Virus record (IMG/VR): IMGVR_UViG_3300030119_000441
Location: 1 to 44,803 of that record
Direction: 5' to 3' (one strand)
Source of the DNA: a virus
Length of the DNA: 44,803 nt
The first letter of the stretch is position 1; each line of letters opens with the position of its first letter. Shown in pieces: positions 3,401-44,428 of the stretch. Position numbers and translations under genes: made by a program. The notes under the pieces were generated by a model. That model did no database searches, was not told the origin of the DNA, and saw only the letters and a list, made by a program, of their open reading frames with translations.

Positions 3401-3407
3401 GTTATGA
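3195..3407 (+). CDS. Overprinted small protein inside terS, coupled to terL
   Basis: A 70-residue ORF in the +1 frame over the 3' end of terS. GGAGGTGA sits 5-6 bases before its ATG, one of the strongest ribosome binding sites in the window. Its TGA overlaps the terL ATG as ATGA, the coupling seen throughout this genome. The product is polar, Gln/Ser-rich first, then a basic helix (residues about 40-65). It could be a separate packaging accessory protein, or the natural C-terminus of TerS reached by frameshifting. Which frame is translated cannot be settled here. Confidence 0.5.
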   Translation: MAAANKPLSQQPQEVSTSSQETLSVKIVPMPHPGRSNNSQMQKLHQRDEARAAKLKEQILAGLLSRTSKL

Positions 3408-4891
3408 GCGAGTTAATGGAAGCTGGCTTTGACGCAGCGGAGGTTAGGAAACTAGCGGAACAGGATCCTAACTTTCTCGCTGGTCTAGCTATGCCAGAAG
3501 TTTACGAGTTTGCTTGGCCCCCGCTATTTATAGTGCTGTGGGCTTGGCTCATGGAGTGTAGCCACAAAGTCAGAAGTTTTGACAGACTGGCGCTAGGCTT
3601 GCCCCGCGGCTTTGGTAAGACCACAATCATTAAGTTGTGGATTCTCGCTCTAATCCTGTTCACTGAGCGCAAGTTCATCTTGGTACTGGCAGAGACTGCA
3701 ACTAAGGCAGAGAACATTATTGCTGACGTTATAGATATGCTGGACGAGCCCAATATTCGGGCAGTGTTCGGTGACTGGCGAGTTGGTGTAGAGAAAGACA
3801 CTAACGCAGTTAAGAAGTTCGGTTTCCGTGGGCGCAACATTATTATCGCAGGTCTCGGGGCTGAAGGTTCGGTTCGTGGTCTGAACTTGAAGAACGCTCG
3901 TCCGGATGCAATTATTTTCGACGACGTACAGAGTCGCGAGAATGCAGATAGCCAGCTGGTGGCAGAGAAACTCTACCAGTGGATGCTGGGTACAGCTATG
4001 AAATCCAAGTCACCGAAAGGTTGCTTGACTGTTTTCATTGGCAACATGTACCCAACTCCGCACGCTATTCTGAAGAAACTGAAAGCTAACAAGTTCTGGA
4101 CCAAGTTCATTGTCGGCGGTATCCTTGCTGACGGAACCTCACTGTGGGAAGACCTTCAGCCAGTTCGCCAGCTTGCAGAAGAGTACCTGTCGGACTTGGA
4201 ATCTGGGCATCCGGAAATTTTCCATGCTGAAGTACTTAATGACGAAGACGCCAGTATCAACAATTTGGTGGACTTTGCTAACCTGCCTGAGTTCCCTTAC
4301 TCACCTGGGGACATTCCCGCCGGCCAGTTCATTGTTATCGACCCTGCCACAAATAAAGAAAACTCCGATGCTGTAGCAATGGGCTACTTTGAAGTTCACG
4401 AAGGTAAGCCGATTGCGCTAGAAGTTCGGAGCGAGAATCTCTCCCCTAAGCAGACTATCGTCGAAGCCATTAAAATCTGTATGCAACGGCAGTGCAGTGT
4501 AGTGGCAGTTGAGTCAGTTGCTTACCAGTCCACTCTGCTATTTTGGGCAACTGAGGTAATGGCAGAGTACGGCATCAGCGGTATTAACTTTGTCGAAATC
4601 TACCCAGGCCGCCGTAATAAGAATGCCCGAATTATGGACATGTTCAAGAGTTACAGCGAAGGCGAGATAGGATGTGTAGCGGACCAGCAACCTCTTTTGC
4701 ACAACCAAATCCGTGGATTCAACCCACTGAAAACAACTAACATTGACGACGTACTAGACTTGTTCACTTATGCTCCCAGGGTCATTCAAGAGTTCGGTGA
4801 CCTTATCAGAGTACGCACACTTCTTGGCGAACTTGAAGCTACCCAAGAAGAAGCCCATGTTTATGAAGAATGGGAAAACTCCTCGTTCTGA
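3404..4891 (+). CDS. terL: Terminase large subunit (packaging ATPase/nuclease)
   Basis: The motor that pumps DNA into the prohead through the portal and cuts the concatemer. The N-terminal ATPase domain has Walker A LPRGFGKTT (residues 66-74) and Walker B AIIFDDVQ (169-176). The C-terminal RNase H-like nuclease has the expected acidic residues: D313 in VIDPAT, E370 in VAVES and D448/D449 in NIDDVLD. At 495 residues it is a normal length, and the pattern is closest to the T7-like terminase group. The ATG at 3404 overlaps the stop of the overprinted ORF. After it comes a 198-base gap filled by a structured RNA. Confidence 0.95.
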   Translation: MSELMEAGFDAAEVRKLAEQDPNFLAGLAMPEVYEFAWPPLFIVLWAWLMECSHKVRSFDRLALGLPRGFGKTTIIKLWILALILFTERKFILVLAETATKAENIIADVIDMLDEPNIRAVFGDWRVGVEKDTNAVKKFGFRGRNIIIAGLGAEGSVRGLNLKNARPDAIIFDDVQSRENADSQLVAEKLYQWMLGTAMKSKSPKGCLTVFIGNMYPTPHAILKKLKANKFWTKFIVGGILADGTSLWEDLQPVRQLAEEYLSDLESGHPEIFHAEVLNDEDASINNLVDFANLPEFPYSPGDIPAGQFIVIDPATNKENSDAVAMGYFEVHEGKPIALEVRSENLSPKQTIVEAIKICMQRQCSVVAVESVAYQSTLLFWATEVMAEYGISGINFVEIYPGRRNKNARIMDMFKSYSEGEIGCVADQQPLLHNQIRGFNPLKTTNIDDVLDLFTYAPRVIQEFGDLIRVRTLLGELEATQEEAHVYEEWENSSF

Positions 4892-4898
4892 TTAGATA

Positions 4899-5060
4899 GC
4901 GCTCCGTACCTTTTGGCAGCGGCGACAAGCGCGTAAACCAGACTCCGTAGGGCCCACAAGTCAATAGCGCCGAAGGCGGCGAGCGAAGCGAGCGTACTAT
5001 TGATCTTGGGGATGCGGAGGATGGTAAGCTAGCTTGGCGGTCGCGCCAAATGAGGAGCGC
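4899..5060 (+). ncRNA. Structured RNA element A (unknown family), leader of the portal gene
   Basis: The terL-portal gap folds into nested helices. Outer helices: GCGCTCC 4899-4905 with 5054-5060; TTTGGC 4912-4917 with 5045-5050; GCGAC 4922-4926 with 5040-5044; AAGC 4927-4930 with 5032-5035. P2: CCA-GA-CTCCG 4938-4947 with CGGAG-GA-TGG 5015-5024, including a possible tandem G-A pair. P3: 4953-4967 with 4997-5011 (TCAATAG/CTATTGA core). P4: CGCC-GAA-GGCG 4968-4978. Single-stranded motifs are CGAGCGAAGCGAG (4980-4992), GGGATGC (5009-5015) and TGGTAAGCTA (5022-5031). The same motifs, order and helix positions recur on the - strand at 27505-27651 with different base pairs. It ends 29 bases before the portal ATG. 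No Rfam family can be assigned by eye. Confidence 0.8.
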
Positions 5061-5089: not shown

Positions 5090-7186
5090 ATGAAGGAAAG
5101 CAAGATTAGTTTTCAGCCAACTCCGAAAACGCAAGAGGCTTTGCTAGCGTTCTCTCGGCAGTGCTTCCAGACACTGAATCAATCTTGGAATATTCGGCAG
5201 CAACTCCTGCAAGCTGATCTGGCTTACTCTCGTTCGGAGGATCTCAGTACTGAGAACGCGAAAGCTAAGGCAGCCAATCGTCGCGGCGATCCTACAAAGT
5301 TCCAGAACATCACAATGCCTGTAGTGCAGCCACAAGTAGAAGCTGCTGTAACCTATCAGCAATCCGTATTCCTGCAGGGCTATCCTATCTTCGGCGCAGT
5401 AAGTTATCCGGAGTTTGCTGATGCTGCAATCCAACTTGACTCCATCATGGGCGAGCATCAAGTTCAGTTTGACTGGATTACCAATCTGCTGAACTGTCTG
5501 CGTAATGGTTTCAAGTACAACATTGGTTGTGTGGAAGTTGATTGGCAGCGCCGCACTTCTTACAACTTTGTCAACGATCCTACCAAGCCTTCAGAGATTA
5601 TCTATTCTGGCAACAAGATCAAGAACCTAGATATGTACAATACATTCTGGGATACTCGTTGCTTGCCGCAAGATGTACCGGAGCACGGTGAGTACGCTGG
5701 CTACACTGAACTGTTTTCCCGTATCCGACTGAAGCAATTTATCCAGGACTTGCCTACTAAGATCAATGTACGCGAAGCTCTGGAATCTGAGGCTTCTGCT
5801 CCTGTAACTGCTGGCAGTGCGGGAGTTGAAAGTTATTACATGCCTCAAATTAACGAGGATGCGTTGCTGGATTTCAACACTCAGCTTGCCACAACTGACT
5901 GGCTTGCGTGGGCTGGGATGTCTGGCGGAAACCGCAAAATTGACTACAAAAATTTGTACCAAGTCACGACTCTTTATGGTAGAATCATGCCATCGGATTT
6001 TGGCATGACCGGCGTACCAGCTCCGAACACTCCGCAAGTTTGGAAGATGGTGATAGTTAACAACCAAGTAGTTGTTCACTTCGAACGCCTTACCAACGTG
6101 CATGGTATGATCCCTATGTTCTTCTGCCAACCTCTGGTAGATGGCCTGGGTTATCAGACCAAAAGTTTTGCAACAAACCTGACTCCGATTCAGTCTATTA
6201 CTACAGCGCTGGCTAACTCTAGTATTTCTATTCGCCGCCGCGCTCTGGCAGATCGCATGTTGTACGATCCCAGCCGAGTTTCAGCAGCAGCTTTGAACAA
6301 CCCGTCGCCAACTGCAAAGATCGCAGTTCGCCCGTCTGCTTATCAGGATGATCTGTCTAAGGCAATCTATCCTATTCCTTATCAAGACGGTTTGTTCCAA
6401 AGCAACACTATGGAGATTCAGCAGTATCTAAGTCTGGCAGATCGAATCTCTGGTATGAACCAAGCCCGCCAAGGGCAGTTTGTTAAAGGTAACAAAACTC
6501 GGACTGAGTACGCAGATATTATGAGTTACGCCAACGGGCGTGATGAAACTATCGCAATCAGTCTGGAATCGAATTTCTTCTCTCCAATCAAAGAAATTCT
6601 GAAGATCAACATTCTGCAGTACCAGATTCCAACTACTGTGTATAACCCGGAGTTGGAAGATTCTGTCAGAGTTGATCCGATCGCACTTCGCAAAGCCGCA
6701 CTTACCATGAAGGTTTCTGATGGTAAACTGCCTAGCGATAAGTTGATCGACGGGGAGTCAATGAGCTTGGCTTTCCAAACAATGGCATCAGTACCGCAGT
6801 TATCCAGTGGTTACAACATGGTGCCAATGTTCAGTTATCTGATGAAGTCTCGTGGAGCTAAACTCCAGCCGTTCGAGAAGAGCCAAGCACAACTGGCTTA
6901 CGAACAAGCGCTGGCAACTTGGCAACAGGCTGCCCAACAGATTGCGGCAATGCTGCAACAGAATCAGGATCCAGAGAATCCAATGCAGCCGGAGGATTTG
7001 CAGAAGTTGCTTGAAGCTAATCCGATGCCTACTCCTGAGCAGTTTGGCTACGAGCCTAACAAACCTAAACTTAGCCAAGGTAATCCACTTGGTGATAACA
7101 ATCCTAGCATTATGGAGCAGATTAGTGGCACAGTTGCTAATGCTGCCCAGAATAGCCAAGGTATAAAAGGAATGGGTCAACAATGA
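5090..7186 (+). CDS. Portal protein (head-tail connector)
   Basis: It forms the dodecameric ring at one capsid vertex that terminase docks on and DNA passes through. At 698 residues it fits the large podovirus portal class. It follows terL and precedes scaffold and capsid genes, the canonical order. The N-terminal 130 or so residues are helical, a long mixed middle region follows, and the C-terminal tail (from about residue 600) is rich in Gln/Pro/Asn, as expected of a flexible barrel or tail. CGGAG lies upstream of the ATG, which sits just after structured RNA element A. The call rests on position, size and general character. Confidence 0.85.
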   Translation: MKESKISFQPTPKTQEALLAFSRQCFQTLNQSWNIRQQLLQADLAYSRSEDLSTENAKAKAANRRGDPTKFQNITMPVVQPQVEAAVTYQQSVFLQGYPIFGAVSYPEFADAAIQLDSIMGEHQVQFDWITNLLNCLRNGFKYNIGCVEVDWQRRTSYNFVNDPTKPSEIIYSGNKIKNLDMYNTFWDTRCLPQDVPEHGEYAGYTELFSRIRLKQFIQDLPTKINVREALESEASAPVTAGSAGVESYYMPQINEDALLDFNTQLATTDWLAWAGMSGGNRKIDYKNLYQVTTLYGRIMPSDFGMTGVPAPNTPQVWKMVIVNNQVVVHFERLTNVHGMIPMFFCQPLVDGLGYQTKSFATNLTPIQSITTALANSSISIRRRALADRMLYDPSRVSAAALNNPSPTAKIAVRPSAYQDDLSKAIYPIPYQDGLFQSNTMEIQQYLSLADRISGMNQARQGQFVKGNKTRTEYADIMSYANGRDETIAISLESNFFSPIKEILKINILQYQIPTTVYNPELEDSVRVDPIALRKAALTMKVSDGKLPSDKLIDGESMSLAFQTMASVPQLSSGYNMVPMFSYLMKSRGAKLQPFEKSQAQLAYEQALATWQQAAQQIAAMLQQNQDPENPMQPEDLQKLLEANPMPTPEQFGYEPNKPKLSQGNPLGDNNPSIMEQISGTVANAAQNSQGIKGMGQQ

Positions 7187-7470
7187 TTATCAACACAAAC
7201 GCTCGGTTTCAGACTTACTTGCTAACTGATGCAGAGCTAAAAGCTGCCGTCACTTTCAATGACTTGCAGCGTGCAAATATCCAGAACCTCGTTGCAGACT
7301 ATGCGAACGAACTTGTAATGGGGGCTGGATTTGACGAGGATGATACTACTGTCCCCGCCATGAAAAAACGTGCCTTTACCCAAGGTGCAATTGCAGCACT
7401 TGAGGGGTTGCTAGCCTCTCTGGAAATCATTCAAAACGAAGACCCTTCCCAAACTGAACAAGGTGATTAA
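7183..7470 (+). CDS. Hypothetical head-region protein (95 aa)
   Basis: A small, acidic, helical protein encoded between portal and scaffold. Its ATG overlaps the portal TGA (ATGA), so it is probably translated by coupling at a similar level. It has no membrane segment or signal. Small genes in this slot in podoviruses often encode head assembly accessories, but no family is recognised. Confidence 0.7.
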   Translation: MIINTNARFQTYLLTDAELKAAVTFNDLQRANIQNLVADYANELVMGAGFDEDDTTVPAMKKRAFTQGAIAALEGLLASLEIIQNEDPSQTEQGD

Positions 7471-11175: not shown

Positions 11176-12735
11176 ATGGCTGATTCCAGTTTTTGGACAC
11201 CTGAGTCAGGTTCTGTAGGCCCGCAAGGTCCTGCTGGTCCTGCTGGTCCGGAAGGTCCATCTATTGAACTACAAGTTACTGGTACCCATATTCAGTGGCG
11301 AGTAGAGGGTGACACTGACTGGATCAACTTAATTTCTTTGGACCTTCTGGTGGGCCCAGCTGGCCCGTTAGGTAACCCAGGTCCGCGTGGTTTGCAAGGC
11401 ACTCCTGGCGCCAAAGGGGACAAAGGTGACCAAGGCGATCCTGGCCTGAATGGAGCTACTTGGCACAGTGTTGTAAGTACCCCGGAAACTGGATTAGGTG
11501 TTGCTGGGGATTATGCTCTCAACACTACTAATGGGGATGTCTGGGAAAAAGATGATGCTACAACTTGGACACTGGTAATGAACATTACCGGCCCGCAAGG
11601 TCCACAAGGCCCAGCTGGCCCAGCCAGTGTTCCGCAGTTCCGCTACGGCAACGGAGCCCCTGACGGTATTTTGGGTATCATTGGTGATTTCTATCTGGAC
11701 ATTGATACCTACGATTTGTACGGACCGAAAACTTCCGAGGGTTGGCCAGCTCCTGTAAATTTGGCAGTGGATCTGGAAGTTGTAGAAGTTGATACAACTT
11801 CACTGAAGATTCAAGCTCCGTACGGTACTCCTGCACTTCTGGTGGCTGCTACTGAAACTCTAGCAGGCTTAATGGCTGCGGCAGATAAGCTAAAGCTAAA
11901 CGGTATTGCCGCGGGAGCCACAGCTAACCAGACTGATGCTTACTTGCTGGCCCGAGCTAATCATACTGGCACACAAATTATCAGCACCATTGTAGGCTTG
12001 CAAGATGCGCTTGATACGCTCAATGCAATTAAAGTCAACATCGCTGATATCATTGACACTGCGACCAGTTCGGCTACAGACCAACCAGTATCCGCCAGAG
12101 TTGCAAAAGATCTGCAAGACCAGATCGCAGCGATTAATACTTTGCTGCTGTCTGACGACACTGACCTGGATACTATTCAGGAAATTGTTGATTACATCAA
12201 TGTTAATCGAGATACGTTGGAGAACCTAGACATCTCTTCTATTGCAGGCCTGCAAGCTGCATTGGATGACAAGGTTAACATTGCGGATATTGTTAATACC
12301 CTTGTGTCTACAGCTACAGACAAACCATTGTCAGCGGCACAAGGTAAGACACTGAAAGATTTAGTAGACAACCGGGTAGTTATTGTTCCCGGTAAGCAGC
12401 TGTCTACCGAAGACTTTACAACGGCAGAGAAAACCAAGCTAGGAGACCTGCCCACTAATTTGGCTCTACAAGCTTCGTTAGACAGTAAAGTTGATAAGGT
12501 TACTGGTCAAGGACTCAGCGACGAGAATTACACAGCACTGGAAAAAACAAAGTTATCTGGTATCGAAGACGGCGCTACTGCTAACGCCGCAGATACTTAC
12601 CTGCTAGCTCGGGATAACCATACTGGAACTCAAGATATCTCTACTGTAGATGGACTACAATCTGCGCTAGATAACCTGAACACAGCAGCTAGTGACCTGG
12701 AACGTCGCATCACTTATGGAGTTTACACAAAATGA
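11176..12735 (+). CDS. Tail fibre with collagen-like repeats
   Basis: A 519-residue fibre. Collagen-like Gly-X-Y blocks occur near residues 9-26 (GPQGPAGPAGPEGP), 57-93 and 137-148, separated by small beta domains, which would form trimeric rods. The C-terminal half has repeated fibre modules, including two copies of a motif YLLAR-x-NHTGTQ (about residues 255-270 and 474-489), each followed by a GLQ-x-ALD segment. That repeat is common in phage tail fibres. I start at the ATG at 11176 (MADSSFW), with GAGGT upstream, rather than at the earlier TTG. The end overlaps the next gene as ATGA. Confidence 0.85.
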   Translation: MADSSFWTPESGSVGPQGPAGPAGPEGPSIELQVTGTHIQWRVEGDTDWINLISLDLLVGPAGPLGNPGPRGLQGTPGAKGDKGDQGDPGLNGATWHSVVSTPETGLGVAGDYALNTTNGDVWEKDDATTWTLVMNITGPQGPQGPAGPASVPQFRYGNGAPDGILGIIGDFYLDIDTYDLYGPKTSEGWPAPVNLAVDLEVVEVDTTSLKIQAPYGTPALLVAATETLAGLMAAADKLKLNGIAAGATANQTDAYLLARANHTGTQIISTIVGLQDALDTLNAIKVNIADIIDTATSSATDQPVSARVAKDLQDQIAAINTLLLSDDTDLDTIQEIVDYINVNRDTLENLDISSIAGLQAALDDKVNIADIVNTLVSTATDKPLSAAQGKTLKDLVDNRVVIVPGKQLSTEDFTTAEKTKLGDLPTNLALQASLDSKVDKVTGQGLSDENYTALEKTKLSGIEDGATANAADTYLLARDNHTGTQDISTVDGLQSALDNLNTAASDLERRITYGVYTK

Positions 12736-22544: not shown

Positions 22545-25500
22545 ATGAACTACGAAGACTCTCCCAACTACCTATCCGCAGCAGACAATCACAGCATTGC
22601 TGCCGCCGGCCTTTCCTTTTTCGAGGACATTGGTAATGCAGCAGCAAATACTCCGGACTTTCTGTTTGTATCAGCTATGTCTGCAGCAAACAGTTTCTAC
22701 AATACTGGCAACGCTGTGGGCAATATTTTCCGGGATCGCGATAACGAAGTTAGTATGCGCGACACTGGGGAGTGGATTACCAGCATGGACGATGATCTTG
22801 GCAGCTATTACAAAGATGTAAAAGGTGCCGCTGATCTGACAGGCTTTGTAGTTAGCTCATTCATTCCGGGTGGAGCGGCTATTAAAGGTTTGCGCGCTGC
22901 CCAAGGTGCGCTCACTGCTGCTAAAGCCGGTGAAGTTGGTTACAATATGTCGGTAGCTACCCGCTTGCTGGCTCCTTCTATGGAGACCTATGTTAAGCGT
23001 GAGGCTGCTATGCTGGCTGGCCGTCAGCAGGCATTTAGCTTTATGCACCAGAACTCACTGAAAGCTCTGGCCTCTGGTACTCACCAAGCTGTGCTGGAGT
23101 CAGTAGCTTTTGAAACTGCTGTGGCCGCCACTATGTTCCAGTCCCCGATTCTGGAGGACATGGATGTTTGGGACATCATGAAAACTGGCCTGATTGGTGT
23201 TGGTTTCGGTAGTGCGCTGGGTGCGGTAGGTTCGGCAGCTGGCACATACTTTGGAGTTAAGCGGCTGGTGCAGAATGCTAATGCCCGCGCTAATCCATTT
23301 TATGCTGGAGCTGAGGCTACCACTGTTGGGGCTGAGCGCACTGGTAACTACGCATCTGACCAGATTGTCCTAGATGCCATGCAACTTACTAGACTGGAGC
23401 AGACTCCGGCAACTCTGGACGGTATCCGTAATACCAAGATTGCCCAAGGCGAGACTGGGGAAAGTTTGCATCCAGATGCTATTTTCTCTGAGCTTACCAG
23501 AGTCCAAGAGATCACTGACAACGCCAAGCAGGTTCTGCAAAATCGTATCCGTACTGGCCTGCAACAGATGACTAAGCAGACCGGTATGGGTAACTACGCA
23601 TTCGAACTGTTCAGCAAAATGGGCCCACGGGAAACTGTGGAAACTATGCTGAACATGAAAGAGATGCGCAGAGCTGGAGTTAAAACTGATTTCGAACTTG
23701 AGATCAAGGCTTACCGTGACATGATTAAGAAACGTGACGGCAAGTCTATTACTCGCGCTCAGGCGCTTAAGCGTTTGAATCGAGAAGATCCGCAGTTCTA
23801 TATCCAACTACACTCCGGTAGCATTGGCCAGAAAACTCAGGGCCGTGCTGGTACTTTGCGCATGGCTGACCGCTTCTCTGAGCAACAACTAGCTAACCGC
23901 TTTAGCGGTAACTTCCGTTTCAGAGAGACTGTGGACTTCCGACTCAAAGGTGATCCTACTGACTTTGAATTGCGCTGGGCACTGTCGCGTAAGCCGGGTT
24001 CTCCGGTGCCTGCTAAGCTGCCTCCGATCCACTCCCATGACTTGCCAGCTCTGGACATGCTGCGCCGGGCTGGGGTCAGCGAAGTTACCTTGACTAATGG
24101 CCAGAAAGTGAATCCAGCTGAGTGGTTGCCGACTGCCCAGATGGAAGTCATTCAGGCACAGAAAGCTAACAAAGCTAACAGTGCCACACTGGAAATCATT
24201 GCGGATGTTCGTAAGGATTTTCTGGAAGGTAACATTGATCCGAAACTTGTAGATGATCCTAAGTGGTTCCGGGCACAGGAATCATATGCAAAAGAGCTGG
24301 ACGAGTTCCTTGGCGGTGAAGGTAAAGTAACTGCCTGGGATTTGCATTCCCGTCCGTCCAAAGCCAAAGTAATCTACGATACCTCACTCCTGAAAGAGGG
24401 AGATGGTATGGTGATGAAAGGTATGGTGATGCTCAAGCACCGTAACAAACTTTCGCAGATGGACACGGATCGTATAGTTTCCAGATATCTCGGTACTCAG
24501 TTCGATCTGTTGGCTCCTCGGTTAGATAACCCAGATGATGGACTGTACAGTACTGAGTATGGCTCTACATTCCTGACCAATGCTGGTGGGGAGTACGGCA
24601 GTCGTGCGCAGCGTGCAGCTTATATTGGTGATGCTATCTCTGAGGTCACCAAGACTAAGATCACTGCCCTGACTGAGGAAGTGCAGAGCAAGTTCAGCAA
24701 CATTCTGCTGGCTAAGCCTGATGAAGCTATCCGCTTTGAAGGTATTAACAGTCTGGTTACTCGCACACCTGACCACTATGTTTTGCATCCAGAAGGTAAG
24801 CAAGCTCTGGTTCCTGAGCAACTGGCTGATTACTGGAAAGCTATGGCTAGGGGGGATGAAAACATCACTCCTCCGCAGCTGCATCCTAACACAGTGGAAG
24901 AAATTCCTCTGGACAGTGAGGACTTGTATCAAGCGGTTAAGTATTGGATTGATGCTAACGACGCTCAGCTGCTCTCTCGGCAAGAGTTCTCCAGTTTGGA
25001 AGGCCGGGCAGGCACTAAACGTATGGGTATCTTTGCCCCTGTACGTCCTGACCCCCGCAATGTTAAACATGTTGCCTTTGTTCGTGACTCCACTATTACT
25101 GGCGGCGGCATGACTCAGATGGTATATGCTGACAGTGCGGCTAAACTGCAAGACATGATGCGGCAGATTCGGGAGCTGGGTACTTACCAGATTATCCAGA
25201 AGCCAACTCAAGGTCTGAAGATTTACACTCGGGGACAAGCAGAGGACTGGCACAAAGCATATGGAGACTGGCAGTACGACAAGACTCTGTATGAGAACCA
25301 CATTAACTCTGACTTGTTGCGTAAGGGTATTGCGACTGAGTACCTGCCGCTGACTGATCCGGACTTGATTGTTAACCGTGCTTACCAGCAACTGGTGCGT
25401 AACGAGAACACCAATATCCGCACAGCGTTCAACCTGACATACAAGGAAGAACTCAACGCAATTGCTCAGCGGGCCAATGAATGGAACTTGGCTAAGGACT

Positions 25501-27425: not shown

Positions 27426-27436
27426 GATCATAAAAA

Positions 27437-27475
27437 ACCCCGGCAGGACTTGACTGTTCCTCCGGGGTATTTTTT
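27437..27475. terminator. Bidirectional Rho-independent terminator between convergent operons
   Basis: ACCCCGG (27437-27443) pairs with CCGGGGT (27462-27468), with AGGA/TCCT extending the stem inside. A T run follows on the + side (27470-27475), and an A run precedes it (T run for the - strand, 27432-27437). It can end both the late rightward and the early leftward transcripts. For the leftward RNA it comes after structured element B. Confidence 0.9.
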
Positions 27476-27504
27476 CGCCTGTGATTTAATCAATCTGCTT
27501 ACTC

Positions 27505-27651
27505 GGCCTTGTCGCTTGCCAGCTCCACTTAGCTTACCACGGGGGCATCCCAGTCAATACTCCCCTCGCTGCGCTCGGCAACTCCGTTGGTATTGACAGT
27601 GAGCCTGGCTTCCCGTGGCTGCATCGCTACGCCGGTCAAGGGACAGCGGCC
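27505..27651 (-). ncRNA. Structured RNA element B (same unknown family as element A), 3' end of leftward operon
   Basis: On the - strand this starts 3 bases after the stop codon of the last leftward gene. Outer helices: GGCC 27651-27648 with 27508-27505, TGTC with GACA, and CTTG with CAAG with a 1x1 C/C loop. P2: CCACGGG 27618-27612 with CCCGTGG 27543-27537. P3: GTCAATAC 27597-27590 with GTATTGAC 27560-27553. P4: CAAC-GGA-GTTG 27589-27579. Shared single-stranded motifs are CGAGCGCAGCGAG (27577-27565), GGGATGC (27551-27545) and TGGTAAGCTA (27539-27530). Order and spacing match element A (67 against 70 nt from P3 start to the last motif), but P2 and P4 pairs differ, i.e. they covary. Confidence 0.8.
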
Positions 27652-27654
27652 TCG

Positions 27655-27921
27655 TTAATGGATACCAATGATGATACTGCGCTTGTCTTGGAGTTTGCGG
27701 ACAAGAACTCCGAAGAGAATACGCATGTCATTGACACTGTACTCCCCATCCATAGCTACGTCACAGTGGGCTGCAATAATAGCAATCCCGTCTGCGAAAG
27801 TCTTGCAACTACTGGGATTCAGTTGGGCAAGCAAGTCTGGGTGGTTTTGGAGTTCCTGCTGAAGCTCTTCGAGTTCTGGCGGAACCATTACTATCAGACT
27901 GTCAGAGGTGACATTGCTCAT
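27655..27921 (-). CDS. Hypothetical protein (88 aa), last gene of leftward operon
   Basis: A small acidic protein with a helical, Leu/Glu-rich middle (PPELEELQQELQNH) and a short hydrophobic segment (GIAIIAAHCD). I start at the ATG at 27921 (MSNVTSD) because AGAGGA lies 8-9 bases upstream within a 16-base string that also precedes the neighbouring small gene. It overlaps the end of that gene. No function is recognised. Structured RNA B follows immediately. Confidence 0.6.
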   Translation of the reverse strand: MSNVTSDSLIVMVPPELEELQQELQNHPDLLAQLNPSSCKTFADGIAIIAAHCDVAMDGEYSVNDMRILFGVLVRKLQDKRSIIIGIH

Positions 27922-28135
27922 CAGATTGGTCCTCTTGCTTGTAGTGGATGTCAATACTTTCACCAGTGGCGGTATCGTGCCAAGCCACGTTTACATTGCG
28001 GGCTATGGGAGTACCGTCGCTGTAAGTTGCATTCTTAGGTGGGGGCCCTTTTGTAGATATGACCAGGCGACCCAGTCTACTACGAGCGCGAAGCCACTCG
28101 TCTACCTCTTTAGCATTGAGCATTTCCAGCTTCAT
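27902..28135 (-). CDS. Hypothetical protein (77 aa)
   Basis: A short polar protein with an N-terminal helix (EVDEWLRARSRLGRLV) and a beta-like C-terminal part ending in Gln/Asp/Glu-rich residues. Its ATG overlaps the exonuclease TGA (TGATG), and GGAGGA lies upstream. It sits between the RNase T-like exonuclease and the last gene. No family is recognised. Confidence 0.6.
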   Translation of the reverse strand: MKLEMLNAKEVDEWLRARSRLGRLVISTKGPPPKNATYSDGTPIARNVNVAWHDTATGESIDIHYKQEDQSDEQCHL

Positions 28136-29213: not shown

Positions 29214-30434
29214 TTACTCTCCTTCAATCAAGTAGTTATAGTCCACCATGTCATTGTATTTCTCTTTGACAGCGCGGCGAACTGGGTATAACTTGTGCTC
29301 GTGAGTTTTGACTTTGCCGGCGTGAATCATGCCAGCCACAGTCTGGTGGAATGTATCAAGTTTATCAAAGTCGCTCTGCACTTTAGCCCACAAGTCTTGC
29401 ATGTCCATACCGTCAGACGCTTCCAGAATCTGAGATACTTTGTGCACCAATGTGGAAGTGCGGGAGAAACCAAAGTCACCAAAGGCATCAGGCATGAACT
29501 GCTCAGCATGATACATCACAGTATTGGCATGTCTTACATCTACAGCCTCGATGATGTTTGACATCCGGGCAGCTGCGTGCAGCATAGAGACTTTTAGCAA
29601 GTGAGTCAGTCTCCGGTTACTGTAGGCAGCGAACCGTACATCATCCACTGGTTGCCAAGTTTTGTATATCTTGTCAATCAGAACTTTGGCTTCAGGGCTG
29701 TACTCTAGCTCGCCTACTACTTTGGCTTTAATTTCGTGCAGCCTGCTAACCATCCGTTCTGTCCATTCCTCATCTTCTAATGGCGGCCAAGTTATTTTTT
29801 CACCAGTAGGTCTGGCATAGATAACAAGTACACGACTGAAGAAACCCTGACCGACAGCAGATGGCGGGAAAGTCTCAGCGAATTGAGTCTGGGTAGTACC
29901 GCCAAGCAAACTGATGATAGGGTTAGGAATGGTTACTGACTTACCGTTCTTAACTTTGTTCTCATACGGGCCGTCCCAATCCCACAGTGCGCCCAACATG
30001 GAAACAAACTCCAGAACATTGTTACCGAAGAAGTCATTGAACTCATCGGCAGCAATCCAACAGGGTCTTGAATCAAAGGAATCACTTCCGAACAGGTCTT
30101 GCTCTAGGAAACTTTCACCGTCGCCGATGTCAACTCCGTCGCCCAAGTCTGCAAGGAACTTTTCCTTACTTGTCTTTTCAGCACTAAAGGTTTTGTAACC
30201 AGCGTTTCTCAAGAGATTCTTAGCAGCTTTAATTGCAGTAGATTTCTTAGTACCTGCTGCGCCCATTAGCAATGTGTACATATTAGGGTAAAGTTTTGAT
30301 CTGCCGAATTTGCAATAAATGTCTCTTTCTAACCAAGCGCCGAGCATACTTATGGCACACCACCTGTCAAAAAACCGCGGGACTTCTGACCCCGCAGTGT
30401 AGTCCAGGTATTCTAGAAAGAAATCATCCTGCAT
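29214..30434 (-). CDS. DUF3987-type replication ATPase/helicase candidate
   Basis: A 406-residue P-loop NTPase. Walker A GAAGTKKST spans residues 58-66, and Walker B ends in ADEF (residues 129-132). Helical linker regions follow, and a C-terminal winged-helix-like region lies near 345-400. The arrangement, with an N-terminal VPRFFDRWCAISMLGAWLER stretch before the P-loop, fits DUF3987-like or primase-associated helicase-like phage proteins. It directly follows the DNA polymerase gene (TAATG overlap) and is likely a replication ATPase. No primase catalytic motif is seen. Confidence 0.65.
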   Translation of the reverse strand: MQDDFFLEYLDYTAGSEVPRFFDRWCAISMLGAWLERDIYCKFGRSKLYPNMYTLLMGAAGTKKSTAIKAAKNLLRNAGYKTFSAEKTSKEKFLADLGDGVDIGDGESFLEQDLFGSDSFDSRPCWIAADEFNDFFGNNVLEFVSMLGALWDWDGPYENKVKNGKSVTIPNPIISLLGGTTQTQFAETFPPSAVGQGFFSRVLVIYARPTGEKITWPPLEDEEWTERMVSRLHEIKAKVVGELEYSPEAKVLIDKIYKTWQPVDDVRFAAYSNRRLTHLLKVSMLHAAARMSNIIEAVDVRHANTVMYHAEQFMPDAFGDFGFSRTSTLVHKVSQILEASDGMDMQDLWAKVQSDFDKLDTFHQTVAGMIHAGKVKTHEHKLYPVRRAVKEKYNDMVDYNYLIEGE

Positions 30435-32713: not shown

Positions 32714-33133
32714 TTAGTGGAAGGCAGGACAGTCTAGTATGCGCGCATCAATATTAAAACTGCACATCATCTGAAAGTCCTTGTAGTGATAGCAACCGGG
32801 ATTACCTTCTTGTGGATCGTAAATAGACTTAAGTGCCTCGGCCCCAAAGCGCAAGTCTACAATGATCTGATGAGTTCCACCGGAGTCATTCAGACTTGGT
32901 ACAGATACTAGATAGCATTGTCCCCAGTACATAGTGCTACCGTAGCTACTACTAGGCACAGCTTCTATGCCGTACTTAGCCAACATCTTATACATAGTCA
33001 GCTCTGGCGCCATGTGGTAATCCTCATTAAACTCAGAGGAAACCACTTGCTCATCCACATCTGCAAGCATAGCGATGCAGGCAGATACACAACTGTTTTG
33101 CAGAGTCTGGGTACGAAGAGTAAGTGGTCTCAT
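32714..33133 (-). CDS. C39/papain-like cysteine peptidase candidate
   Basis: A 139-residue protein with the layout of a minimal papain-fold peptidase: QNSCVSACIAML with catalytic Cys15 (Gln12 as possible oxyanion helper), GGTHQIIVDL with His88, and IYDPQEG with Asp106. This order and spacing match C39-like domains, which usually process leader peptides or occur in phage proteins of unknown role. It has no transporter partner. It sits between a small unknown gene and DNA polymerase, so it is likely early and cytoplasmic. Substrate is unknown. Confidence 0.65.
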   Translation of the reverse strand: MRPLTLRTQTLQNSCVSACIAMLADVDEQVVSSEFNEDYHMAPELTMYKMLAKYGIEAVPSSSYGSTMYWGQCYLVSVPSLNDSGGTHQIIVDLRFGAEALKSIYDPQEGNPGCYHYKDFQMMCSFNIDARILDCPAFH

Positions 33134-33134
33134 G

Positions 33135-33392
33135 TCAATTTTTTCCCGGTGGTTTCCAGCCTAACTTAACCAGAATCTTATGAACAGCACTGAACTCATC
33201 AATCTTAATTTCTTGCACTGAGTCCTGCTTGGTCACATGATTGCGATGAGTGATTGTGATTTTGTTCTGAGTTGCATCAACAAGAATCACACGGTGCTGG
33301 CCACCCGGCATGATAGTTAAGTGCGCAGAGTCTGGAATCTCTTTACGCTTCGGATGGTTTGGAGTCTCTTCGATAACAAGTTGGTCAGTCAT
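33135..33392 (-). CDS. Hypothetical protein (85 aa)
   Basis: A small basic protein with a beta-rich middle (HRVILVDATQNKITITHRNHV) and a C-terminal helix ending in GWKPPGKN. AAGGAG lies 8 bases upstream of the ATG. It lies between the tRNA and the C39-like gene. No family is recognised; the size and strand pattern could suit a small nucleic-acid-binding or inhibitor protein. Confidence 0.65.
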   Translation of the reverse strand: MTDQLVIEETPNHPKRKEIPDSAHLTIMPGGQHRVILVDATQNKITITHRNHVTKQDSVQEIKIDEFSAVHKILVKLGWKPPGKN

Positions 33393-33420: not shown

Positions 33421-33497
33421 TGGTATGCCAGACAGGATTCGAACCTGCGACCAAGAACTTAGAAGGTTCCTGCTCTATCCAGCTGAGCTACTGGCAC
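33421..33497 (-). tRNA. tRNA-Arg (anticodon UCU)
   Basis: A full cloverleaf on the - strand: acceptor GTGCCAG/CTGGCAT (first pair G-U), D arm GCTCAGCTGGATAGAGC, anticodon stem GGAAC/GTTCT around loop CTTCTAA with anticodon TCT, and a T arm with TTCGAAT. The 3' CCA is encoded. It reads AGA (and AGG by wobble), codons rare in many Gram-negative hosts but common in the leftward genes here. Confidence 0.93.
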
Positions 33498-33596: not shown

Positions 33597-34085
33597 TCAG
33601 GCCAGTTGGACAGACTTGATCTGGTTGAACTTCATGTCCGGGTCATCCTTGTCAGCCTTGACTGCCACAGTCATTGCAACTTCTGCACCGTCAGAGGCAT
33701 TCATGATTTCGGAAGGGGAGGAACCACCGAAAGTTTCACGAAGTACTGCGAGTACCTCTTTCAGCTGACCTTGGCCAAACAGCATCGGCTTGCCTGCGTT
33801 CGGTCCTTTCTGAGTAATGATGGGAGTACCATCACGCATCTCGATCGGGAAGCGGAAGTTGACTTTCTTACCCGGCTCCGGCGCAGTGTCCTTGGTGGGA
33901 TTGGAAAGTTCCAGAACTTCTTTGTACTCGAAGCTCATGACAACGATGACTTTCTCTTCGTCGTCAGCCATGCCCCAACCGATAGTACCGAGGTGGCTAC
34001 CTTTGGGCAGGGGTTCAAACTTTTCCAGATCCGCCAGATCGTCGATAGAGGAGTCCAGCAAACCGCCAATGTTGTCGATAGACAT
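33597..34085 (-). CDS. Probable ssDNA-binding/recombination accessory protein
   Basis: A 162-residue acidic protein. The N-terminus (SIDDLADLEKFEPLPKGSH) followed by a beta-rich core (residues about 30-100) and a second strand set near the end resembles small phage single-stranded DNA-binding proteins with an OB-like fold. It is encoded directly downstream of a Sak4-like ATPase, a pairing often seen in phages where the ATPase anneals strands with an SSB partner. Codons look well adapted, consistent with abundance. There is no diagnostic motif, so this is a context-based call. Confidence 0.5.
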   Translation of the reverse strand: MSIDNIGGLLDSSIDDLADLEKFEPLPKGSHLGTIGWGMADDEEKVIVVMSFEYKEVLELSNPTKDTAPEPGKKVNFRFPIEMRDGTPIITQKGPNAGKPMLFGQGQLKEVLAVLRETFGGSSPSEIMNASDGAEVAMTVAVKADKDDPDMKFNQIKSVQLA

Positions 34086-34140
34086 AGTCTTATTCCTTCT
34101 TCATTACAGTGTGATATGAGGTTGTGTATTACAGTACTTC

Positions 34141-37545: not shown

Positions 37546-38253
37546 TTACACTCTCCGCTTGTAGATACTCCCCAACTCAGAGAGCATGAAAGTTTTGTAC
37601 TCTTCCCAGGTTTCAGGAGTAGCTGCTTTACTGCGCTGCATCAGGACTTCCAAGAACATATTATCTTCAGCAGCCAGGCTCTCAAACCAGCCCGGAACTT
37701 TCCAGTGCTTGTCGTACTCACCGCTCTTGTAACCGTTGGCTTGGCGGAACTCATTGAGACAGCACTTGGCAGCATAGATGTGGACAACATCTTCACCAGT
37801 CATACCTAGAGTATGCAGAAGACTCTGCAAAGAGTCCCACTTAATGCCAGTTGCCAGGTACTCACAAGCGATTACTTTCAAATTGTACGCAATAGTATCT
37901 GTCTGAAGGTGAGAAAGATACTCTTTGCTTGCAGGTTCAGGAACTTGATTGACCATCCAGAACTTGCTCAGAACAAAGTGAAGCATGTCAATCAGCTCCA
38001 ACTTGAACTGCTCCCGATTCTCAGGCGGGAGATAGTAAGCACCACTGGTATCTTTCCACCACTTCCAGTTGACCAGACTCAGTGCTTCAGCAACTTCGTC
38101 AATAAGAGCCAGTTGGAAATCCCAGTTCTGGGTCAGCCAGTTAGGATGGATCAACTTGTTCAGCTCATTCTGGCGTTCCATAAGCCAAGCAATTTGGCTA
38201 CGGGTAAATACCGGGCCAGTAACTGCTCTTACTACTGTACGTTCTTCGTTCAT
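37546..38253 (-). CDS. Dimeric dUTPase (all-alpha NTP pyrophosphatase)
   Basis: It hydrolyses dUTP (and possibly dUDP) to dUMP, keeping uracil out of phage DNA and feeding dTMP synthesis. It matches the dimeric dUTPase/MazG-like fold: LIDEVAEALSLVNWKWWK gives the first metal-binding pair (E..E, with the WKWW substrate segment), KLELIDMLHFVLS gives the second pair (E..D), and EYDKHW occurs near the end. The 236-aa length is normal. I place the start at 38253 (MNEERTV), as GGAGG lies 8 bases upstream; a start at 38268 would use that site as coding sequence. Confidence 0.85.
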   Translation of the reverse strand: MNEERTVVRAVTGPVFTRSQIAWLMERQNELNKLIHPNWLTQNWDFQLALIDEVAEALSLVNWKWWKDTSGAYYLPPENREQFKLELIDMLHFVLSKFWMVNQVPEPASKEYLSHLQTDTIAYNLKVIACEYLATGIKWDSLQSLLHTLGMTGEDVVHIYAAKCCLNEFRQANGYKSGEYDKHWKVPGWFESLAAEDNMFLEVLMQRSKAATPETWEEYKTFMLSELGSIYKRRV

Positions 38254-42745: not shown

Positions 42746-42823
42746 ATATTAAGTCCTTAAAAGGATAGTTTCTAAAGGTTGAGTGGGCGAGGCTGCTAAC
42801 TGACTGAGTATCTAACTGCTAGC

Positions 42824-42886
42824 GAACTCTAACTCTAACTCCAACTCTAACCTGTCTGCAATGCAAGGGTCTGCAAAGTCTGCAAA
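42824..42886. repeat. Hexamer tandem repeat plus three GTCTGCAA repeats (possible iterons)
   Basis: Within a 142-base intergenic gap, AACTCT-type hexamers run four times (42825-42851), followed by GTCTGCAA at 42854-42861, 42869-42876 and 42879-42886. Three more GTCTGCAA copies lie about 1 kb away inside the 351-residue gene. No gene is supported in the gap. The repeats could be binding sites for a replication or regulatory protein. Confidence 0.55.
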
Positions 42887-42887
42887 G

Positions 42888-43328
42888 TTATGCCCGGATA
42901 TTAACTTGTGGCATTTCATAACCATGAAATTCAGCATACTCTTTTGCTGCATTGTAGTCAGCTTGGCTAACTGCCATACCAGAGACTGCTGCAAGTTCCA
43001 CAATTTGCCAAGAACTGTACTGAACTTCTGGGCTAGAGTAGTCTAAGTCTTGGCCAGTTATAGCCTTTGCCTGACTCGCACTAGCTTCAGGACCAAGTAA
43101 CTCTTGGCGAATAAGATCAGTCTGAGTTGCTCGGGGTCCAGTATTTACATAAGCTGGTTTAACTGCGCCCATATTGATCTTAACCAATTGCATCTGTACA
43201 ACTTTGTATGCTGAGTTAGCAGTTTCATTAGTTGCACAGTATGGTTCAAGAGCCTGACTGATAACTTTCAGCTCATCAGCAGTCAGAGAGGGACGGTACT
43301 TAGCGGATTTAGTTAGATCATTAGTCAT
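42888..43328 (-). CDS. Hypothetical protein (146 aa)
   Basis: Helical, with an N-terminal KSAKYRPSLTADELKVI stretch and a C-terminal helix with AKEYAEFHGYEMP. AAGGTAAC lies upstream of the ATG, which follows the stop of the interrupted 96-codon gene by one base. No domain is recognised. Confidence 0.65.
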   Translation of the reverse strand: MTNDLTKSAKYRPSLTADELKVISQALEPYCATNETANSAYKVVQMQLVKINMGAVKPAYVNTGPRATQTDLIRQELLGPEASASQAKAITGQDLDYSSPEVQYSSWQIVELAAVSGMAVSQADYNAAKEYAEFHGYEMPQVNIRA

Positions 43329-43329
43329 T

Positions 43330-43620
43330 TTAGTTACCTTGTTTATGTTGGTTATTCATATAGTTAATGTTAGCAAAAAACATTTTGTGTTGAATTGAGG
43401 CATCCAGCAACTTAAAGTTTCTTTGCAGTCTTTTAACTATAGCTACTCGTTGTGATTCAGGCAGTTTTCACCAAGCAGTTCTGTAAACTTTTAAGTCATC
43501 GTTTCTTTTAAGCTCGATCATGAAAAAAGTTAATCGGTTAAGAGACTGCTCTGGTGTCATTTCCTCTGGCGCAGCAGTAAACTGGTGAGGATAAGTTTCG
43601 CGCTCTTGTTTATCAGCCAT
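43330..43620 (-). pseudogene. 96-codon gene interrupted by one in-frame TGA
   Basis: From ATG 43620 (GGAG site upstream) the frame runs 50 codons to TGG-TGA (TGA at 43470-43468), then continues open for 45 more codons to TAA (43332-43330), one base before the next ATG. The protein reads MADKQERETYPHQF ... VYRTAW-stop-KLPESQRVAIVK ... NNQHKQGN. The part after the stop is helical and gene-like, and its end has the tight spacing of this operon. The stop may be a point mutation (TGG, CGA or GGA to TGA), a read-through site, or a sequencing error. Confidence 0.7.
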
Positions 43621-43626
43621 TGTCAG

Positions 43627-44022
43627 TTACTCCATTCCAATTGAGGCCAGTTGTTTACGCCACTCAGTATAGACAGTACCAGTCAGGCAGTCTGCATCAG
43701 TTAGCTCAATGCGATACTCTTCCCATACTTTGTCTTTCAGTCCATTAGGAACTGCTACTGATCCGCAAAGTCTTAGCTCAGAGAGTTTCACAACTTGCAT
43801 CATATAGTGACCGTGATCTTTACTCTTACCCCAGCAAACTACACTCAGAGTGGACATTAAATCAGAGTGCTGAGTTGGATAGTGTGAGTCAACCCAGACT
43901 AATGAGTTAGGCTTAAGATAGTGGTTTAAAGGTGCGCAACCTTTAGTAACTACCAGAACTTTACCTTTAATAACAGGCAAGTCATCTTTAGTCAGTTCCA
44001 CATGCTGGTAACCGTGAGTCAT
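43627..44022 (-). CDS. Hypothetical protein (131 aa)
   Basis: I start at the ATG at 44022 (MTHGYQHVE), with AAGGAC 7 bases upstream; the longer frame to 44181 runs inside the previous gene. The sequence has several beta-like strands (KGKVLVVTKG, SLVWVDSHYP, LSVVCWG) and a C-terminal helix, suggesting a small alpha/beta domain. No family is recognised. It is an early gene near the start of the leftward operon. Confidence 0.65.
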   Translation of the reverse strand: MTHGYQHVELTKDDLPVIKGKVLVVTKGCAPLNHYLKPNSLVWVDSHYPTQHSDLMSTLSVVCWGKSKDHGHYMMQVVKLSELRLCGSVAVPNGLKDKVWEEYRIELTDADCLTGTVYTEWRKQLASIGME

Positions 44023-44026
44023 TGTA

Positions 44027-44428
44027 TTAGTCCTTATAAGTGATAACTGATTTGAGTAGTGCAATTCGAGCTTTCTTTGACTTAGGCCGCTTAGCCCAGT
44101 TTGAAAAGATAGCGAATCGCAGTTTGTGCATAGTTGATTGATAGCAGAACTTCGGGTTATTCCAGACTCCCCAGTATTCATCAGTTTCTTGGAATGCCTG
44201 AATGTAAGGTACTACAATTGAGTTACTGCGGCCATTTGGTAGACTCAGGTAAGTGTGGATACTTTTGGCTACTTTCACATATTCTTTAAATGATATGAGT
44301 TTATGAGTTACCGCTAGACCTACCTCATTACACATATACCAACCATCAGTAGGTTGATATTTACTATCTATGTGAGTCAGTAGAGTGTTAAATATTTCCT
44401 GAACTGATCTAACTTTGTTAGTGCTCAT
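44027..44428 (-). CDS. Hypothetical protein (133 aa), first gene of the leftward operon
   Basis: Helical N-terminus (SVQEIFNTLLTHI), aromatic-rich middle (DGWYMCNEVGL), and a basic C-terminus (WAKRPKSKKARIALLKS) that could bind nucleic acid. AAGGAT lies 8 bases before the ATG. Upstream is the AT-rich repeat region that should hold the operon promoter. Its 5' end is duplicated at 1-63. Position suggests an immediate-early protein, for example a host-takeover factor. Confidence 0.65.
   Translation of the reverse strand: MSTNKVRSVQEIFNTLLTHIDSKYQPTDGWYMCNEVGLAVTHKLISFKEYVKVAKSIHTYLSLPNGRSNSIVVPYIQAFQETDEYWGVWNNPKFCYQSTMHKLRFAIFSNWAKRPKSKKARIALLKSVITYKD

Follow-up and report, generated by a model that had tools for sequence, protein, structure and literature searches.

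What is the folded element that fills the gap between the terminase and portal genes of a phage, and why does the same genome hold a second one at the end of its replication operon? The phage is known from a 44.8-kb IMG/VR record, analyzed here over its whole length and referred to as ‘the window’; its kin at the level of the terminase include Polaromonas phage Tiera, Aeromonas phage P5 and Pseudomonas phage PaP2. A sequence-only reading had taken the two elements, A and B, for a homologous pair of structured RNAs with compensatory base pairs, and had offered a ribozyme, a regulator of portal translation, a packaging RNA and a mobile RNA as possible roles.

Anatomy of the two rods

Element A occupies the gap between terL (3404–4891) and the portal gene (5090–7186). 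Element B lies downstream of the gene that closes the replication operon (27655–27963, minus strand), and beyond the terminator-like hairpin that comes next is a convergent structural operon (Table 1). The sequences and coordinates first reported for A and B are correct, and both elements are indeed non-coding, A between terL and portal and B past the stop of a 102-aa gene. Each folds as one long rod composed of numerous short helices with small internal loops between them, including, in A, the tandem G.A loop ACCA-GA-CUCCG/CGGAG-GA-UGGU. Compared with dinucleotide shuffles, the folding of A has a z-score of −6.2 and that of B −3.6, and in neither case did any of 200 shuffles fold as well. The two also share GAGCGNAGCGAG, a string with exactly two occurrences in the window where 0.01 would be expected. 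With the homologues described below, these properties bear out the view that A and B are a homologous, structured pair. The window also carries a tRNA-Arg gene (anticodon TCT; 33421–33497, minus strand) inside the replication module.

Table 1. Positions of the two elements, their parts and the neighboring hairpin in the window
Feature	Position	Strand	Remarks
Element A, whole rod	4899–5060	+	~8 nt past the terL stop; ~30 nt short of the portal ATG (5090)
A closing stem, 5′ strand, TCAATAG	4961–4967	+	Pairs with CTATTGA at 4997–5003
A apical hairpin 1, CGCC-GAA-GGCG	4968–4978	+	Covaries with CAAC-GGA-GTTG of B
A apical hairpin 2, GC-GA-GC-GAA-GC-GA-GC	4979–4993	+	Tandem G.A pairs, C(GAA)G triloop; the CGAGCGNAGCGAG of the sequence-only reading
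A three-way-junction joint, GTA, 3 nt	4994–4996	+	Same joint length in B and C
A rod 3′ strand, GGGATGC...GGTAAGCT	5009–5030	+	Related 3′ strand in homologues C to G2
Element B, whole rod	27505–27651	−	Directly past the stop of the 102-aa gene (27655–27963, −); terminator-like hairpin next
B closing stem GTCAATAC/GTATTGAC and whole apex	27553–27597	−	From folding
B apical hairpin 1, CAAC-GGA-GTTG	27579–27589	−	From apex comparison with A
B apical hairpin 2, CC-GA-GC-GCA-GC-GA-GG	27564–27578	−	Outer pair C-G, against G-C in A
Terminator-like hairpin, CCCCGG..CCGGGG-TTTTTT	27430–27482	−	Separates B from the end of the convergent structural operon (27425); seen in the sequence

The apex of the rod, in A, in B and in the homologue C from another phage, is a three-way junction made up of a closing stem with UCAA/UUGA, two hairpins and a 3-nt joint. 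Hairpin 1 has the general form CNNC-GNA-GNNG, and hairpin 2 the form S-C-GA-GC-GNA-GC-GA-G-S, in which each ‘GA’ takes part in tandem G.A pairs. The two hairpins and the joint together measure exactly 29 nt in all three elements. Hairpin 1 of A can also fold with a G(AAGG)C tetraloop, and C offers a tetraloop alternative as well; the triloop form is the one backed by B. Three motifs had been read as unpaired. One, CGAGCGNAGCGAG, turns out to be the 15-nt hairpin 2 itself. The others, GGGATGC and GGTAAGCTA, belong to the 3′ strand of the rod, where some of their bases are paired and others fall in internal loops.

Homologues in other phages

Twelve further distinct homologues, together with near-identical duplicates, occur in other phages: in two other phage groups, where copies are again found by terminase genes; in a relative of the window phage at the genus level (G006); and in the cultured Aeromonas phage P5. 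The number of copies per phage ranges from two to eight, with two in the window, three in G006 and about eight in P5. Scanned over the window, the family models match A and B only. C was found by its apex pattern and is identical in four contigs; its phage is distant, with a terL 24% identical to that of the window. D, in which hairpin 1 is shortened, comes from a relative of C’s phage, and both elements sit in the same gap, between terL and portal; two other relatives have no such gap at all. A further sequence pattern brought in F, and also E and E2, which lie directly upstream of terL. The phage that carries F, G006, has two more copies, G1, upstream of terL, and G2. In C to G2, G1 excepted, the 3′ strand reads by eye as GAAGUAAGCU followed a few bases on by AGCGG.

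Covariance models were built stepwise, R1 from A–D, R2 from nine sequences and R3 from 12. R1 recovered E, E2, F and G1, and weakly G2, none of which belonged to its building set; R2 recovered copies in P5, a phage from outside its set; and R3 matched three gap copies in P5 on which it had not been built (12129–12221, 29977–30063 and 25243–25327). Such a search had been proposed as the route to new members, and it did lead to homologues with the fold in other phages. One P5 copy, P5-6 (33987–34129), was recognized through the folding of its gap, and this and P5-8 are the weakest members of the family.

Two features of the C–D region deserve mention in their own right. A GIY-YIG-like homing-endonuclease ORF (L136:6450–7000) occupies the terL–portal gap at the place where the related phage L135 has D, which makes the gap a possible hotspot of insertion. 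Small ORFs traverse both C (L108:6226–6513) and D (L135:6307–6771), and their shared cysteine-rich tail (CDACPCGLPIWNCNHECY / CDCCACGYPIWHCNFDCFRM) overlaps the portal start.

Other searches were negative. No copy tested, A and B among them, matched an Rfam 15 family: scans at the gathering cut-off returned tRNAs only, and permissive E-values gave no meaningful match. Searches of GenBank phages by blastn with A, B, C, E, F and G2 found no homologue, and model scans found no family match in PaP2, Tiera, EBPR podovirus 3, Alcaligenes phage QDWS535, L092/G003 or G011. Model R2 and the pattern GAAGTAAGCTN{5,8}AGCGG found nothing in a single bacterial class, sampled with 369 genomes, which is weak evidence as R2 scored only 11 candidates per genome; the carriers found are phages only, with bacterial sampling limited to that class. 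In viral contigs the pattern GGGATGC..GGTAAGCTA matched 79 loci, all by chance except L003, a near-identical contig carrying B. Plasmids searched with C gave chance matches only. The 12 matches to AGCGNAGCGAG..GGGATGC..GTAAGC in bacterial genomes were likewise due to chance; three of them, from Corynebacterium (L101:7264–7349, L094 and L102), are the same ribosomal-operon leader, apparently upstream of rpsJ, in which a CGAGCGAAGCGAG-capped hairpin is followed by GGGGATGC and GGTAAGC, and its likeness to the family is probably convergent. A literature search, with most subscription journals outside its scope, found no description of the element family.

Several other regions attracted attention in the course of these searches. 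In an ssDNA microvirus (L165, Microvirus mar46 4142–4785), a rod of ~150 nt with the apex GCAAGGC-CGAGCGAAGCGAG, as in E, lies within an annotated hypothetical CDS and scores only 16.6 bits with R2. PaP2 (L169) has two strongly folded intergenic rods, at 7115–7289 and 42747–42909 (z −5.4 and −7.2), that the family models do not match; these are possibly diverged members, or members of another family. In P5 (L168), the gap at 32861–33154 folds strongly (z −8.4) into several AT-rich and palindromic hairpins unlike those of the family. A gap in EBPR podovirus 3 (L170, 9386–9550) contains an almost perfect inverted repeat of ~55 nt (z −9.5), possibly an assembly palindrome and possibly a biological one. 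And in Tiera (L167), a block beginning GTTCGTTATATCCCCGCGATCCCCCCACACCCC is tandemly duplicated within a 780-bp non-coding gap (43392–44171).

Evidence for the fold and for its strand

The number of pairs in which both sides have changed rises as members are added, from 15 of 34 with four sequences to 22 with nine and 28 with 12, counts that lean towards the model because the alignments were made by hand or by model and fitted to the structure. None of 500 shuffles did as well, and slid pairings fail. The covariation claimed for A and B therefore holds, and extends to the new members. The closing-stem pairs that join UCAA to UUGA are nearly invariant among the 12 sequences, and the remainder covaries.

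Since these alignments were fitted to the structure, we also ran a strand-symmetric test independent of them, in which the arms of 16 elements, with apex boundaries set by hand, were aligned to one another with an equal score for every mismatch. G.A mismatches outnumber T.C mismatches by 64 to 5 (p = 5e-9, corrected for composition), a ratio that is only 1.5 in sense windows drawn at random from the window phage; G.U exceeds A.C by 27 to 14 (p = 0.01, likewise corrected). From the first of these biases it follows that folding takes place in single-stranded form and on one particular strand. Neither a palindrome maintained for a double-stranded role nor one regenerated by template switching would be expected to show it. 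We regard the fold as almost certainly real, selected and strand-specific. As comparison shows, the structure is a rod of ~100–170 nt with G.A internal loops and a three-way-junction cap, in which the sequence of the arms changes and their pairing is kept.

Genomic position and possible function

In 15 of the 16 copies, the folding strand coincides with the coding strand of the genes on either side (p = 3e-4). The exception, F in G006, has a bidirectional terminator-like hairpin on one side and the convergent structural operon on the other, and may be read mainly antisense. The rods sit between the stop codon of the upstream gene and the ribosome site of the next; in several gaps they begin ~0–10 nt past the stop and take up most of the gap. 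Seven of the eight P5 copies fall in annotated gaps, though only 7% of P5 is non-coding, and the eighth (37988–38083) overlaps an annotated coding end. Sites differ among related phages, as between the window and G006: the G1 and G2 sites are empty in the window. None of eight terL relatives (terL 54–65% identical to that of the window) has the element in its terL–portal gap. We found no protein limited to carriers; terL, DNA polymerase and primase/helicase are common to them but occur in non-carriers too.

Each genome has several diverged copies, which lie beside stop codons at unrelated pairs of genes, fold on the coding strand and are accompanied by no carrier-restricted protein; this pattern suggests an element that acts in cis and is read by factors of the host. 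Because the fold is kept on the coding strand while its sequence changes, it most likely acts in phage mRNA. Our preferred prediction, which we put at an even chance, is that A and B are intercistronic mRNA elements for processing or stability. The rod, we infer, would form in polycistronic phage mRNA, from the stop codon of one gene to the ribosome site of the next, and would offer host RNases or binding proteins a double-stranded landmark. Cleavage of the RNase III type, a block to 3′–5′ decay, or both, would then separate and stabilize the individual cistrons, apparently with no need for a dedicated phage protein. An intercistronic rod of the kind found at the RNase III sites of T7 would be the most economical mechanism; transcription, cutting and stabilization are proposed by analogy, and we judge them as likely to prove right as wrong. 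Some observations fit the mRNA reading less well: F is possibly antisense for the most part, one P5 copy lies in a coding end, and both C and D are crossed by small ORFs. The conserved apex also exceeds what RNase III requires.

The apical loops raise the main rival, that the functional form is folded single-stranded DNA, serving for instance as a site of priming, of replication or of attC-like recombination, and that the direction of transcription is merely correlated. By hand count, 22 of 23 apical hairpins have a triloop closed by a C-G pair, in 17 cases C(GNA)G, compared with 197 triloops among 1087 hairpins taken as background from these genomes (Fisher p = 2e-15). Of the P5 loops, five depart from GNA, and three of these (TCC, TAC and TAC) read GNA on the opposite strand. 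C(GNA)G minihairpins are exceptionally stable as DNA, as in N4 promoters and phage origins, and a preference for C-G-closed triloops is better known from DNA hairpins. It is for these loops that we retain the DNA alternative. Sheared G.A pairs are stable in DNA too, related phages differ in their sites, and F has no clear sense transcript to fit; but the coding-strand orientation and the excess of G.U over A.C speak for RNA, no integrase, HUH or other protein is limited to carriers, and attC boxes were not noticed, though without a formal scan. On this evidence RNA, as the sequence-only reading had supposed, is likely, and a DNA role is possible, if the less probable. In its fuller form, sites at the gene boundaries of lytic phages would follow attC-like logic without an integrase; a host or replication protein would read the single-stranded form and prime synthesis or shuffle modules, and the mRNA orientation would be a by-product. 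This we think somewhat less likely again.

A dispersed, non-autonomous hairpin of the MITE, REP or ERIC kind, moved by a host enzyme and of no benefit to the phage, would account for two to eight copies per genome, for the turnover of sites and for copies in coding ends. We doubt it. The copies are deeply diverged rather than near-identical, C and D keep the same gap, and covarying arms with strand-specific mismatches mean that the fold is under selection. The turnover of sites yielded no empty-site alignment clean enough to show target sites. The suggested mobile RNA is supported in part: sites do differ between relatives, but the copies are old and diverged, and we found no carrier-only protein and no target-site evidence. 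The other suggestions, a packaging RNA, a ribozyme or a regulator of portal translation, amount to a trans-acting phage RNA, and here the attraction is position, with A, C and D between terL and portal, and E and G1 upstream of terL. A packaging RNA, however, should be a single copy tied to packaging genes and kept in relatives. The element is found in several diverged copies per genome at many gene boundaries, and in none of the eight relatives does it stand before portal, which argues against both a packaging RNA and a portal-specific switch; nor is there positive evidence of a ribozyme, or an Rfam match to one or to pRNA. We consider a trans-acting role very unlikely. Template-switch rewriting of quasi-palindromes during replication, finally, could make arms complementary with no selection on the folded strand, and in P5 the arms differ entirely among copies yet are nearly perfect palindromes. 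The mechanism is symmetric in mismatch types between strands, contrary to the G.A excess, and internal loops, junction and UCAA/UUGA are kept across phage groups. Contradicted for the A–G2 group and possible for part of the P5 arms, it is the least probable explanation overall.

These rods add a structurally defined family of elements to the gaps between the structural genes of phages, a part of the genome that seldom receives attention, and P5 provides a cultured carrier. On the mRNA reading, an intercistronic RNA module that cuts or stabilizes polycistronic messages would be shared by some lytic phages. On the DNA reading, the borders of phage genes would bear dedicated folding sites, which could help to explain mosaic exchange or replication starts.

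Among known systems, the pRNA of phi29 is likewise structured, ~170 nt long, built on a three-way junction and located near packaging genes; the rods differ in being multiple, diverged, at unrelated loci, not conserved at terL and without an Rfam match. The promoter hairpins of the N4 virion RNA polymerase share the C(GNA)G triloop on a short hairpin, but are only ~20 nt long; a promoter for such a polymerase was considered, and no gene for one was recognized in the window (Pfam, PHROGs). Integron attC sites are imperfect folded rods of diverged sequence and conserved structure that lie beside stop codons and fold from one strand; they have R/L boxes (RYYYAAC/GTTRRRY) at the base and a tyrosine integrase to act on them. 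For the rods no integrase was found and, without a formal scan, no such boxes were noticed, and their conserved part is the apex and mid-rod. Bacterial ERIC/IRU, REP/BIME and Correia-type hairpins are also dispersed imperfect palindromes, of ~100–170 bp, in transcribed gaps, but they are found on bacterial chromosomes and the copies within one genome keep their sequence, whereas the rods keep mainly their fold and apex. The RNase III R-sites of T7 are long imperfect hairpins with internal loops, intercistronic, on the coding strand, several per phage and divergent in sequence. Fifteen of the 16 rods match this placement on the coding strand, with F ambiguous and one P5 copy inside an annotated CDS; R-sites are shorter and lack the conserved three-way-junction apex, the UCAA/UUGA stem and the GUAAGC internal-loop motif, and for the rods cleavage by RNase III is only predicted. 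The family is new by the architecture of its apex and by its conservation of fold over sequence; in its working it resembles intergenic elements already known, the T7 R-sites and ERIC/REP.
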